A DNA stretch of 64,000 bases from Streptomyces atroolivaceus. GTDB taxonomy: Bacteria; Actinomycetota; Actinomycetes; Streptomycetales; Streptomycetaceae. Position 1 is the stretch's first letter, and each line of letters begins with the position of its first letter. Made by a program: the position numbers and the translations under genes. The DNA is taken from positions 186,001-250,000 of the forward strand of contig NZ_JNXG01000001.1 in the NCBI RefSeq assembly GCF_000717025.1. Reading direction: 5' to 3'. The notes beneath the pieces are model-generated. The model was not told the DNA's origin and made no database searches. It worked only from the letters and a program-made list of their open reading frames with translations. Of the stretch, positions 23,954 through 27,335 are shown piece by piece.

Positions 23954-24355
23954 ATGCCTGACGTTCGCAACCCCGGCCCCGAGTACCTCGCGTTCTGGCG
24001 GGAGCGCCATGTGTGCACCCTCACGACGCTCCGCCCCGACGGCACACCGCATGTGGTGCCGGTCGGCGTGACGTACGACCCGGAGACACGGCTCGCCCGC
24101 ATCATCACGGGCGGAAACACCAGGAAGGTCGCCCACGTCCTGGCGGCGGGCCCCGAAGGGGCACGCGTCGCGGTCTGCCAGATGCAGGGGCGCCGCTGGG
24201 CGACCCTGGAGGGCGTGGCGGTGGTCCGTACGGAGCCCGCGGAGATCCAGGACGCGGTACGCCGCTACGCCGAGCGCTACGAGCGCACCCCGCGGCACAA
24301 CCCCGAGCGGGTCGTCATCGAGATCGCCGTCGACAGGGCGCTCGGAAAAGGCTGA
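23954..24355 (+). CDS. PPOX-class pyridoxamine 5'-phosphate oxidase-like (probable F420/flavin) protein
   Basis: 133 residues, the length of the small F420/FMN-binding split-barrel family. Motifs are RHVCTLTTLRPDGTPHVVPVGVTYDPETRLARIITGG, then GNTRKVAHVLAAGPEGARVAVCQMQGRRWATLEGVA, in which the Lys and surrounding loop bind flavin or F420 phosphate. Actinobacterial members often use F420 to reduce enones. Start ATG 23954. It lies divergent from clpB across the HspR element. Substrate unknown. Confidence 0.85.
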   Translation: MPDVRNPGPEYLAFWRERHVCTLTTLRPDGTPHVVPVGVTYDPETRLARIITGGNTRKVAHVLAAGPEGARVAVCQMQGRRWATLEGVAVVRTEPAEIQDAVRRYAERYERTPRHNPERVVIEIAVDRALGKG

Positions 24356-24466: not shown

Positions 24467-24787
24467 TCAGGCACTGCGGGGGGTGGCGGAAATGGCTTCT
24501 TGTTCGAACAGCTCATGATCGCGCTGATCGAGATTTACAAAAATCATGCCGTACCTCACGGCACAGCGAACCGGCTGCGGCGCTCCGCGCGGCCGGCGAA
24601 GACAGCGATAGGCGCGGATGTCGTCATCCGTTTCCATGACGACGACGATGGGCTCCCCGAACAGGGTGACCATCAACGAATCGCCCTGGCGGGTAAGTGC
24701 CGTGAGCAGATCGATGAAGTGCCACCCTGAGCGGTAGGCCGTGGCCATCTCCCGCCGGAAGGTGCGGTCGTCCGGAGGGGTGGTCAT
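24467..24787 (-). CDS. Rieske-like small protein lacking iron ligands
   Basis: 106 residues. GDSLMVTLFGEPIVVVMETDDDIRAYRCLRRPRGAP and then VRYGMIFVNLDQR recall the start and end of the Rieske domain of ring-hydroxylating oxygenases (GEPVVVVRD...AFxNxCPHRGA and GFIFVNLDP). The CxH and CxxH cluster ligands and the segment between them are absent, so it should not hold a [2Fe-2S] cluster. It starts with an ATGA overlap with the stop of the DITWG peptide gene, a strong sign that the two act together. Role unknown; a binding or adaptor function is my inference. The resemblance is to short motifs only. Confidence 0.6.
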   Translation of the reverse strand: MTTPPDDRTFRREMATAYRSGWHFIDLLTALTRQGDSLMVTLFGEPIVVVMETDDDIRAYRCLRRPRGAPQPVRCAVRYGMIFVNLDQRDHELFEQEAISATPRSA

Positions 24788-25032
24788 GCGCCGGCGTGGG
24801 TCGGAGCCGCACCCCACGTGATGTCACCCGTGGCCACACCCCATGTGATGTCGCCGCCCTCAGCCGCACCCCACGTGATGTCGCCCGGAGCAGCCCCCCA
24901 CGTGATGTCACCGGGAGCCGCCTGCTCGGCCGTCGCAACTCCCCAGGTGATGTCATGGGTACCCACCGCACCGTATGCCAGGGCCCCCACGAACGCAGTG
25001 GCAAGCACCGAGCGAAGCATTCGCTTAGACAT
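24784..25032 (-). CDS. Secreted/precursor peptide with five DITWG repeats
   Basis: 82 residues. An N-terminal signal-like segment (MSKRMLRSVLATAFVGALAYGAVG: basic start then hydrophobic core) is followed by five copies of DITWG (starting near residues 27, 42, 51, 61 and 70), spaced 9-15 residues apart by Gly/Ala/Pro/Glu linkers such as AAPG and VATG. Start ATG 25032 is preceded by TGAGGA; longer forms to 25077 lack good sites. The stop overlaps the start of the next gene. Divergent from the first LuxR-type regulator. I do not recognise a family function. The regular core-like repeats suggest either a multicore peptide precursor or an extracellular binding peptide; neither is shown. Confidence 0.75.
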   Translation of the reverse strand: MSKRMLRSVLATAFVGALAYGAVGTHDITWGVATAEQAAPGDITWGAAPGDITWGAAEGGDITWGVATGDITWGAAPTHAGA

Positions 25033-25124
25033 TTCGGCTTCGTCCTCACTTGATGGATTCATCTCCCCCGCAATCAAGACGATGTCTCACGCGGACACGC
25101 AAGCACCACCGGATCGATGCATCA

Positions 25125-25146
25125 TGTTCCTGCACGTTCAGGAACA
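25125..25146. promoter_or_regulatory. Candidate operator, inverted repeat between DITWG gene and regulator 1
   Basis: TGTTCCTG-CACGTT-CAGGAACA, perfect eight-base arms. Thirteen of its bases (GCACGTTCAGGAA, 25132-25144) recur exactly at 26109-26121 and inverted (12 bases) at 26136-26147, flanking regulator 1 and upstream of regulator 2. It sits in the 128-base divergent promoter region, where a regulator could control both directions. Confidence 0.6.
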
Positions 25147-25160
25147 TGGGGGGTGGAGAT

Positions 25161-26141
25161 ATGTGCACAAGTGGCTCAAAGGCGTCACATCCTCACGGGA
25201 TCACCCAACTATGCGATGCGGGGCAGGCCCTCTACGCCAGCGCGCTGCGGTCCGGACGCATACCGCGCGCGGAGGTCGAACCAGCCCCCTGCCTGATGGA
25301 CTTCGCCCTGCTCCACCCCGATCCCGACGATGCCGACTGGCTGCGCCCGGTGCCGCCCTCGGCGGCGCTCGCCCAGAGGCTGCACCCGATAGAGCGGGAG
25401 ATCCAGGAGCGGAGGCGCCACTCCCTGGAGCTGACCGAGTCCTTCGAGCCCTTCATGGACATCAGCGCCCAGGACCCGCCGACCACACACGCCATCACCG
25501 TGCTGGAGGGCAGCACGCGCATCAACGCGGCCATCGACGCCGCCACCGCGGAGTGCCACACCGAAGTACTCACGGTGCAGCCGGGGGGCGGACGGAGCGA
25601 GGACATCCTCAGCAAGGGGCTGGAGCGGGGCAAGGCGGTGGTGGACCGCGGCGTCAGCATCCGCACGCTCTACCAGCACACGGTACGCCACCACCAGGGG
25701 ACGTTCGCGTACGCGGAGAGGCTCGCCGAAGGCGTGGCGATCCGCACGCTGGAGGAGCTCGTGGAACGACTCCTCATCTTCGACCGGACCGTCGCCTTCA
25801 TTCCCGCCCAGGACGACCGGACGGTCGCCCTGGAACTCCGGCACCCGGGTCTCGTCTCCTACCTGACCAGTGTCTTCGAGCAGCTCTGGCAGAGCGCCAC
25901 CCCACTTCTGGAGGACATCCGGTACGAGCCGACCCCGGTCGGGATCAGCGGCGTCCAGCGCTCCATAGCCCAGCTCCTCGTCGAAGGTCACGTCGACGAC
26001 TCCATCGCCCGCCGCCTCGGGATGAACGTCCGCACCTGCCGGGCGCACATCGCCAAACTGTCGGCCACCCTGGGCAGCACCAGCCGCGCCCAGCTCGGGT
26101 ACCTGATCGCACGTTCAGGAATCCTCGACCAGGAATCCTGA
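25161..26141 (+). CDS. LuxR-type HTH regulator 1 with PLD/TrmB-like sensor segment
   Basis: About 326 residues. The C terminus (265-322) is a LuxR-type helix-turn-helix: GVQRSIAQLLVEGHVDDSIARRLGMNVRTCRAHIAKLSATLGSTSRAQLGYL. The middle (ECHTEVLTVQPGGG to ERLLIFDRTVAFIP) resembles the ligand-binding half of TrmB and the phospholipase D-like sensor domain without its HKD residues. ATG 25161 (behind GGTGGAG) is my choice; upstream ATGs at 25146 and 25050 are alternatives. Its paralog follows on the same strand at 26313. Likely controls the DITWG gene and itself via the repeat at 25125. The ligand is unknown; a peptide ligand is a hypothesis. Confidence 0.82.
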   Translation: MCTSGSKASHPHGITQLCDAGQALYASALRSGRIPRAEVEPAPCLMDFALLHPDPDDADWLRPVPPSAALAQRLHPIEREIQERRRHSLELTESFEPFMDISAQDPPTTHAITVLEGSTRINAAIDAATAECHTEVLTVQPGGGRSEDILSKGLERGKAVVDRGVSIRTLYQHTVRHHQGTFAYAERLAEGVAIRTLEELVERLLIFDRTVAFIPAQDDRTVALELRHPGLVSYLTSVFEQLWQSATPLLEDIRYEPTPVGISGVQRSIAQLLVEGHVDDSIARRLGMNVRTCRAHIAKLSATLGSTSRAQLGYLIARSGILDQES

Positions 26142-26149
26142 ACGTGCGA
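26107..26149. promoter_or_regulatory. Inverted repeat over the stop of regulator 1 (terminator and/or operator)
   Basis: Fourteen-base arms TCGCACGTTCAGGA and TCCTGAACGTGCGA, with an inner TCCT/AGGA stem. It covers the last codons and stop. It may terminate the first regulator transcript, but it also repeats the sequence of the upstream operator, so it could bind the same protein before regulator 2. Confidence 0.6.
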
Positions 26150-26312
26150 GGCTCGAGGTACCCCCGCCCCGAAGCCGGAGGACGAGTCCGCGCACAGCGT
26201 GTGAGTGCGGCCGCGCCCGCATCGGACCGGGCGAGTTCCCCTCTCGCCCGGCCCCTCCAGACTCCCCCGCGGGCGCCGCTTCCACCACCGTCATCTTTTT
26301 GCACTGCACAAA

Positions 26313-27335
26313 GTGAGGGGTCATCAAATCGATACCCATGAGGCGAACCCGGCACATTCCCACGGCCCCCGGGAGCTCTGCGAACCGGCGCTCCAGCTGT
26401 ACGAGGAGGCGCTGCGTGTGGGGCGGGTCTCCCGCACCGCCCTGGCGTCGGCCCCGTGCCTGATCGAGATGTCCCTGGTCCACCCCGACACCGGCGACGA
26501 CGCGTGGATGCGCCCCGTCCCGCCGTCCGCCGCACTGGCCCACCTGCTGCAGCCCATCACCCGTGAGATCGACGAACGAATACGGCTGAGCACCGCTCTG
26601 AGCCGGGTGCTGACACCGCTGGCGTCCGTCGCCGACGAGAACCCCAACCTGGCGATCACCGTGCTCGACGGGAGGCCGCAGATCGTGTCCGCCCTCCGGG
26701 AGGCCGCCCTCCACGCGAGGGAGGAGGTGCTGACGGCGCAGCCCGGGGGCAACCGGCTGGAGCACCACATGAGGCAGGGGCTGGAGAACGCCCGTTCGGC
26801 GATCGCCGGAGGAGCCAGGCTCCGGCACATCTACCAGCACCCGGCCCGCTACAACTCCCGGGTCAAGGACTACGTGTCACAGGTGCCCGGCGACTGCCTC
26901 CAGGTCCGCACGGTGGAACAGACCGTCGAACGGCTCATCATCTTCGACCGCACCGTCGCCTACATACCCGCCACCCCCGAACGCAACGTGGCCCTGGAGA
27001 TCCGCCACCCGGCCCTGGTGCGCTACCTCGTCCAGGTCTACGAGGTCCTCTGGGCGCAGGCGACCCCGCTCACCCAGCAGCTCCCCACGACCGCCCCCGG
27101 CGCCCAGGTCACGGCCGTCCAGCAGAGCATCGCCCGGCTCCTCGGCGAGGGCCACGTCGACGACGTGGTGGCACGCAAGCTGGGCATCAGCGTCCGGACC
27201 TGCCGCTCCCACATCGCCAAGCTCATGCAGGCCCTGGGGGCCACCAGCAGGACCCATCTGGGCGTCCTGATCATGCGGTCCGGCATCGTGGACACCGCCC
27301 CGGCCACGGGGAAGGGGTCCGTCCCGGAGTCGTGA
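26313..27335 (+). CDS. LuxR-type HTH regulator 2 (paralog of regulator 1)
   Basis: About 340 residues, alignable with regulator 1 over the whole length: APCLIEMSLVHPD against APCLMDFALLHPD, VPPSAALAHLL against VPPSAALAQRL, EEVLTAQPGGNRLE against TEVLTVQPGGGRSE, RLIIFDRTVAYIPA against RLLIFDRTVAFIPA, and GHVDDVVARKLGISVRTCRSHIAKLMQALG in the DNA-binding domain. The start is a GTG at 26313 by alignment; no ribosome-binding sequence precedes it, so translation may be leaderless or coupled. It ends against the hspR terminator. Tandem duplication followed by divergence is the likely origin. Confidence 0.8.
   Translation: MRGHQIDTHEANPAHSHGPRELCEPALQLYEEALRVGRVSRTALASAPCLIEMSLVHPDTGDDAWMRPVPPSAALAHLLQPITREIDERIRLSTALSRVLTPLASVADENPNLAITVLDGRPQIVSALREAALHAREEVLTAQPGGNRLEHHMRQGLENARSAIAGGARLRHIYQHPARYNSRVKDYVSQVPGDCLQVRTVEQTVERLIIFDRTVAYIPATPERNVALEIRHPALVRYLVQVYEVLWAQATPLTQQLPTTAPGAQVTAVQQSIARLLGEGHVDDVVARKLGISVRTCRSHIAKLMQALGATSRTHLGVLIMRSGIVDTAPATGKGSVPES

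Follow-up and report, generated by a model that had tools for sequence, protein, structure and literature searches.

In a 64,000-nucleotide window of the Streptomyces atroolivaceus genome (the window being the whole stretch analysed, with positions counted from its first letter), the interval between clpB and hspR encodes a small peptide with repeated Asp-Ile-Thr-Trp words, a coupled Rieske-like protein and, divergently, two regulators (R1 and R2). Across Streptomyces, we found that this word (D-x-x-W, the residue after the first being termed the first x) covaries with a few residues in the sensor of R1, in independent lineages, in held-out loci and in a second actinobacterial family. To judge from this covariation, R1 very likely recognises the peptide directly, and the locus is probably a gene-encoded peptide signal accompanied by its receptor, for which the sequence patterns make a pheromone role likely. 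The locus comprises the following features:

24784-25032, minus strand: DITWG-repeat peptide gene (82 amino acids; ATG at 25032, stop at 24784-24786); relatives start at the corresponding Met, and a longer frame from TTG 25077 is also present.
24814-24954, minus strand: span of the five DITW words (24943-24954, 24898-24909, 24871-24882, 24841-24852 and 24814-24825).
25161-26141, plus strand: R1 (326 amino acids), the regulator that follows the word by coevolution, with a TrmB/phospholipase D (PLD)-like sensor and a LuxR-type helix-turn-helix (HTH) by fold and Pfam.
25488-25490, plus strand: R1 His110 codon, covarying with the first motif residue (Asp mostly with His; Asn with Asp or Gly; not significant on trees).
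25566-25568, plus strand: R1 Val136 codon, covarying with the first x (Ser with Met; Thr, Ile or Val with Val; Pro with Leu).
25629-25631, plus strand: R1 Gly157 codon (Asp if the first x is Ser or Thr).
About 26313-27335, plus strand: R2, a paralogous regulator (from a GTG start that is uncertain; the frame is open from 26205), whose relatives keep the residue-157 rule and not the residue-136 rule.
24467-24787, minus strand: Rieske-fold protein without His ligands (106 amino acids, conserved TPRSA-type C terminus), overlapping the peptide stop as ATGA.
25123-25148, no strand: operator-like palindrome separating the divergent genes for the peptide and R1 (conserved in 95 of 140 loci).
26107-26149, no strand: terminator-like inverted repeat spanning the R1 stop (a minority of loci).
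23954-24355, plus strand: PPOX gene, also between clpB and hspR.

Much of what the initial annotation had described is borne out by the window sequence: five DITWG copies, a Rieske-like gene coupled to the peptide gene (4-nucleotide overlap) and lacking cluster ligands (Arg at the presumed His sites), and two tandem LuxR-type regulators divergent from the peptide, on the plus strand between it and hspR. The repeat is real, although its unit is a word of four residues (DxxW) rather than the five proposed. Searching the genus with the Rieske-like gene gave matches in 163 of 199 Streptomyces genomes, and the clpB–hspR interval was analysed in 140 of these, the best matches of the list, including the genome of the window. 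The same-order co-occurrence that the annotation had suggested looking for was found, with a peptide and at least one regulator of the family at each of the 140 loci fetched by the Rieske-like gene.

Peptides were parsed by script in 138 of these loci and by eye in the other 2. Their word takes the form [D/E/N]-x-x-W, in 36 versions among the 138 peptides (including DITW, DIGW, DIAW, EISW, DVGW, DLAW, DLVW, DSTW, DSSW, DTSW, DSHW, DSKW, DTVW, DSGW, DTGW, EPSW, EPTW, DPSW, NSSW and NTSW), and only 3.6% of random strain pairs share the same word. Within a peptide it is nearly invariant: 361 of 366 copies equal their own consensus, and 102 of 107 multicopy peptides are fully uniform. The Thr codons of the five window words are, in order, ACC, ACG, ACG, ACA and ACG; because three different codons are used, the word is held at the protein level. 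Among word pairs identical in protein, 378 of 618 differ in DNA, which argues for selection rather than recent duplication. Since synonymous differences among copies occur in 83 of the 107 multicopy loci and the residues directly after the word are only 37% identical between copies, selection appears to hold every copy to one and the same word. Repetition is not required, because 43 peptides of the pooled sets hold a single word (23 of them ending in it as a C-terminal pentapeptide, for example DSKWD or DTVWD); the highest copy number is about twelve words in one precursor (L154). The residue after Trp is identical in all copies in 128 of 203 multicopy peptides of the pooled sets, in which some strains overlap. 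The peptide has a basic and hydrophobic N terminus and no Pfam match at E up to 1. Some near relatives (among P0002, P0003, P0004, P0006 and P0011) bear the database name 5'-nucleotidase, which their sequences do not support.

R1 tracks the word more closely than does any other gene of the interval that we compared. A partial Mantel test over the 89 loci whose fetched stretch included hspR, controlling for clpB, hspR and Rieske-like distances, associated R1 with the word at r = 0.46 (largest of 300 permutations, 0.13), against −0.04 for hspR, 0.07 for clpB and 0.18 for the Rieske-like gene. A scan of single columns placed R1 residue 136 (partial r = 0.66) and then residue 157 (0.42) at the top for the first x, and residue 110 (0.51) for the first motif position; no column of R2, the Rieske-like protein, HspR, PPOX or ClpB equalled the best R1 column at these two positions (maxima of 0.36 at the first position and 0.30 at the first x). 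Cross tables over the 140 loci give a nearly deterministic code. Words with Ser as the first x go with Met136 (55/56) and Asp157 (56/56), those with Thr with Val136 and Asp157 (each 32/32), those with Ile with Val136 (23/23) and Gly or Ala at 157, those with Val with Val136 (4/4), those with Pro with Leu136 (16/16) and a hydrophobic residue 157, and those with Leu with Val136 (6/9). Asp157 accompanies all 88 Ser or Thr words and never another first x. A first motif residue Asp is paired with His110 in 104 of 113 loci, Asn with Asp or Gly110 in 10 of 10, and Glu with His (9) or Gln (8). The pattern is chemically sensible: with a Ser word, the larger Met136 could fill the space of the missing Thr methyl group, Asp157 could bond the word's hydroxyl, and His110 could face the acid.

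Independent switches were counted on a FastTree phylogeny of clpB DNA and on a separate R1 tree built without the contact columns. The clpB tree holds 17 supported independent Ser/Thr pairs, in which Met136 changed the same way in 16.7 on average and the opposite way in 0 (median P = 1.5 × 10−5); on the R1 tree, Met136 followed Ser/Thr in 7 of 8 pairs (P = 0.016). Fewer changes of the word are required on the R1 tree (58) than on the clpB tree (86), which means that the word follows R1 better than it does clpB. Held-out loci, which are relatives of the first set and not independent draws, point the same way. A first held-out set (80 loci from named GTDB genomes, 78 of which were usable and 64 of which had an R1 different from all earlier ones) paired Ile with Val136 in 33/33, Ser with Met136 and Asp157 in 7/7, Thr with Val136 and Asp157 in 4/4, Pro with Leu136 in 10/10, Leu with Val136 in 3/4 (one gap) and Val with Val (4) or Ile (2); at the first position, Asp went with His110 in 49/50 (one gap) and Glu with His (8), Gln (5) or Asn (1). 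A second set (30 further loci, 23 of them new) gave Ser with Met136 and Asp157 in 17/17, Thr with Val136 and Asp157 in 4/4, Pro with Leu136 in 2/2, Asn with Asp110 in 4/4, Asp with His110 in 17/18 and one Glu with Asp. Across both sets, the residue-136 rule held at 81 of the 83 loci that have as first x one of the five residues it covers (Ser, Thr, Ile, Val or Pro; 58/60 and 23/23).

Relatives of the regulator occur in 19 of the 81 genera of a class sample (E 1 × 10−20) and in 1 of 147 genera, its own, of a phylum sample that drew other families (E 1 × 10−30). In a second actinobacterial family, they were found in 34 of 81 genomes (E 1 × 10−40), and 29 of the 32 loci examined there have an export-like open reading frame with DTGW, DTSW, DTTW, DSGW or DSSW, tail to tail with the regulator (the same script pattern on reversed sequence, lacking the filter for overlap with the regulator, gave some candidate at 7 of 32). 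Met136 is present with four of the five Ser-type words in this family and with none of the 24 Thr-type words (Fisher P = 2.1 × 10−4, uncorrected for relatedness), the four Met136 cases falling in three places by nearest relative; with Thr-type words, residue 136 is Leu (23) or Ile (1), where Streptomyces has Val. At four loci (L304, L305, L307 and L318), A-x-A directly precedes the word. On plasmids, 119 records hold regulator relatives, with less than 60% identity at the best place of each; a search for viruses carrying the Rieske-like or the R1 protein confirmed none.

An AlphaFold2 model of R1 (42 sequences; mean predicted local distance difference test score 81.6, predicted template modelling score 0.50, leaving domain placement uncertain) has a PLD-like sensor and an HTH, and Foldseek groups it with phospholipase-D folds, TrmBL2 and the sugar-binding domain of TrmB. 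In the model, residue 110 immediately precedes one strand, residue 136 begins the next and residue 157 sits on the helix after that, a topology that would put all three on one edge of the sheet. Against Pfam GerE, the HTH of R2 passes the cut-off and that of R1 falls just below it (19.3 versus 23.5 bits); a DUF7436 match for the regulator is also below its cut-off. Pfam matches at E up to 1 include no autoinducer-binding domain beside the LuxR HTH in R1 or R2 and no tetratricopeptide repeat family in the receptor. The likeness to archaeal TrmBL2 (5bpi) lies in the sensor fold (E = 4.6 × 10−12), but TM-score is 0.32 and root mean square deviation 16 Å over the whole chain; that to the TrmB sugar-binding domain (2f5t; E = 4.5 × 10−5, 3.1 Å, 143 columns) is over one domain of R1. 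TrmB is a sugar-binding protein whose DNA-binding domain is N-terminal; in R1, the LuxR HTH lies at the C terminus and the ligand appears to be a peptide.

The principle of a peptide signal with a one-component receptor is known from Bacillota, in the RRNPP systems such as Rap/Phr, PlcR/PapR and ComR/XIP; the peptide, the receptor fold and the phylum differ here. Set beside the five RRNPP criteria that we took from the available text of PMC10075063, the locus has an adjacent small propeptide (82 amino acids, within 10-100) with a divergent regulator of 326 amino acids (within 250-500), and a short linear peptide, often C-terminal here, that the regulator would read directly. Unlike RRNPP systems, it has a TrmB/PLD-like sensor with a LuxR HTH in place of tetratricopeptide repeats, a D-x-x-W word that is often repeated and an Actinomycetota host. 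RRNPP propeptides are Sec-secreted and matured by peptidases; on this criterion, the peptides of both families here have N termini that look export-like by eye and by a simple script pattern. The 655-Da peptide imported by BldK in S. coelicolor is likewise a short extracellular peptide governing Streptomyces development, but nothing marks it as DxxW: DTHWP, found in two cases, would weigh 654.28 Da, and, as the S. coelicolor word was not obtained, no identification is claimed. The BldK uptake protein is described as poorly conserved in the available text of PMC9640686, whose authors suggest that strains may use different peptides. No description of a DxxW peptide family was found in the literature searched, with subscription papers and most preprints outside its coverage.

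On these grounds, we propose that the precursor would be exported through its hydrophobic N terminus and cut to short D-x-x-W(-x) peptides, the copy number setting the dose, and that the peptide would re-enter the cytoplasm, probably by an oligopeptide permease, and bind the TrmB/PLD-like sensor of R1. Trp would serve as the constant anchor, residue 110 would face the first, usually acidic, residue, and residues 136 and 157 would form the pocket for the first x, as the covariation suggests. Bound R1 would then act at the palindrome between its own gene and that of the peptide, giving autoregulation and control of further genes, with R2 and the Rieske-like protein presumably accessory; word and pocket changing together would sort strains into many non-equivalent signal types. 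The palindrome is the part of the annotated shared operator-like repeat that stands: as the best match to TTCCTGNNNGTTCAGGAA with at most three mismatches, it was recovered in 95 of 140 loci and in 0 of 140 shuffled stretches (one shuffle each). The second repeat (26107-26149) is not general, and we rejected it as a shared operator, a hairpin of like strength occurring in 19 of 140 loci (0 in control stretches inside R1). A genome-wide regulon drawn from the palindrome was also rejected, since only the local site is an exact copy in its own genome and the rest are at control level.

Several observations weigh against this interpretation. At 45 of the 140 loci no operator can be recognised, and the genome holds no other clear copy of the site, so that downstream targets lack a lead from this site. 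On the trees, the Asp157 association is significant with clpB only (6/6, P = 0.03; R1 tree 3/3, P = 0.25), and the Asn/Asp test for the first position is not significant (3/4 and 1/1 pairs). At that position, other R1 columns come near residue 110 (0.44-0.49), mostly marking the E-type lineage, and His110 is missing in 9 of 113 D-type loci; the third motif position covaries weakly (best r = 0.23). The residue-136 rule has exceptions in two loci of the first held-out set with the new word DVSW, which have Ile136, and in a second-family locus (L334), which breaks the Met rule. The Rieske-like gene shows a weak partial correlation of its own with the word (0.18, permutation P = 0.003; above every permutation), and R2 is also much diverged (71-89% identical) in 9 of the 10 different-word pairs with R2 on both sides (98% in the other).

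The last of these points could favour the view that the association is a by-product of linkage, with block recombination and shared history but no contact, as peptide and R1 are adjacent and diverge together and R2 is often diverged in the same pairs. In the 14 closest pairs of strains with different words (several sharing members), clpB DNA is 95-99% and R1 DNA 72-82% identical, yet the Rieske-like gene, which overlaps the peptide gene, is 92-99% identical; in the 14 closest same-word pairs, R1 is 88-98% identical. One different-word pair (L092/L097, DTVW/DSKW) is 98% identical in R2 and 99% in clpB, and 81% in R1. The divergence lies mainly in the N-terminal, coiled and PLD-like parts of R1 (68-80% mean protein identity) rather than in the HTH (90%), whose conservation matches the shared operator. 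Different words also occur under one species name (two records each of S. anulatus, S. globisporus and S. atratus), although the GTDB collection from which these records come has a single genome per GTDB species. Over 78 loci, R1 remains associated with the word when clpB, Rieske-like and R2 distances are held constant (partial r = 0.32; largest permutation 0.13), whereas R2 is not once R1 is held constant (−0.05; 0.08, P = 0.04, without that control). Moreover, a few R1 residues carry the association; it reappears in independent pairs, including those on the tree of R1 itself, and in another family whose gene arrangement is different. Neither linkage nor shared ancestry explains the residue-level code, and we regard the by-product view as very improbable. 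Nor do the same data support a symmetric regulator pair: R2 and later regulators keep Asp157 with Ser/Thr words (65/72) but not the residue-136 rule, so that R1 is the regulator that tells Ser from Thr, and R2 may see the class of the word.

Recognition by R1 would fit equally well if R1 read the DxxW peptide inside the producer only, as a private sensor giving feedback on precursor synthesis or on failed export, and there is no importer among the genes of the block; we nonetheless consider this unlikely, as 36 words and diverged peptide–R1 alleles in close strains are expected of signal types between cells, and export-like N termini recur in both families. Less likely still is that the peptide is a multicore antibiotic or other product, modified or not, with R1 as product sensor in the manner of autoinducing bacteriocins. 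Precursors of up to about twelve copies do resemble multicore precursors, and an insertion apparently in this block alters antibiotic output in S. coelicolor. The gene concerned, SCO3664, would by its number lie between clpB (SCO3661) and hspR (SCO3668), a placement that we assume, its identity being unverified. In the available text of PMC6585502, insertions raised actinorhodin more than 50-fold, and more than 200-fold in some mutants, with SCO3664 ('regulator') among the targets; complementation restored 12 of 16 regulator mutants, a figure that says nothing specific on SCO3664. Weighing against a multicore product, the block has no maturation enzyme, transporter or immunity gene, 43 parsed precursors are single-copy (23 with the word as the last five residues), and the variable core is only two residues. 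The simplest form of this idea, which the initial annotation had entertained, is thus not supported, no maturation enzyme being found among the five block proteins scanned for families, whereas its suggestion of a peptide signal with a receptor-regulator is strongly supported by the residue-level coevolution of peptide and R1.

The Rieske-like protein resembles the Rieske [2Fe-2S] domains of ring-hydroxylating oxygenases in fold and, weakly, in sequence. Its fold matches are Rieske oxygenase N-domains (best Foldseek E = 4.4 × 10−3, none below 1 × 10−3), but the cluster ligands CxH and CxxH were not found in 29 aligned sequences; on our reading of the pattern, C-x-R and C-x-x-R correspond to these sites, with Arg64 and Arg78 invariant in 29/29 and Cys62 and Cys75 variable, and its 106 amino acids leave no catalytic domain. 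The ATGA overlap of peptide stop and Rieske-like start seen in the window recurs in at least 66 of the 138 parsed loci, window included, a lower bound as some starts come from partial alignments. In an order sample of 197 genomes (six genera, mostly its own), the protein was matched in its own genus only. Either R1 or the precursor may have it as a structural partner. The TPRSA-type C terminus (24467-24520 in the window) is conserved behind a linker of very variable length, as if it were a docking peptide. Database names for the Rieske-fold protein, (2Fe-2S)-binding or ring-hydroxylating dioxygenase subunit, are not supported by the sequences.

Regulator number varies among loci: by script, one to five tandem regulators follow the peptide (L052, L068, L120, L121 and others; shadow frames may inflate the count), and some genomes have a further regulator nearby on the other strand. 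Elsewhere in the genome of the window (G000, contig C26:59079-59915; L293, L352), a further PLD-like LuxR regulator and, about 0.65 kb away, a divergent export-like open reading frame ending in DMSWQ possibly form a second signal pair. Paralogous Streptomyces regulators have neighbours ending in DPGWQ (two copies in one peptide) and NNDWQ (L353 608-805, L358 719-1027); a C-terminal word near such regulators was not clearly above the reversed control (3 versus 2, at 12 loci), and we treat these WQ-ending neighbours as leads only. In S. coelicolor, SCO3665 (327 amino acids) and SCO3666 (394 amino acids) are classed as LuxR-type in the available text of PMC3282765, which, with the gene numbers, underlies the assumed placement of SCO3664; also LuxR-type is the short regulator SCO2686 (338 amino acids), an actinorhodin down-modulator in the available text of PMC6585502.

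Together, these results lead us to favour, with some reserve, a new class of gene-encoded Actinomycetota pheromones: D-x-x-W tetra- or pentapeptides read directly by TrmB/PLD-like LuxR regulators through a near-deterministic code (Ser, Met136/Asp157; Thr, Val136/Asp157; Pro, Leu136; Ile, Val136/Gly157), in which Streptomyces would exchange dozens of signal types in the form of peptide–R1 alleles, and which would be present in at least one other family and perhaps at paralogous loci. Communication signals in Actinomycetota are typically small molecules made by enzymes, according to the available text of PMC10075063; a peptide signal that is gene-encoded, conserved and specified by a readable code would, if true, be a different principle in this phylum. 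The residue code gives exact predictions for synthetic tetrapeptides and single-residue exchanges. The DxxW signal is also a candidate for peptide signals in development and, as SCO3664 is apparently of this block, could provide a cheap synthetic key to each strain's regulation.

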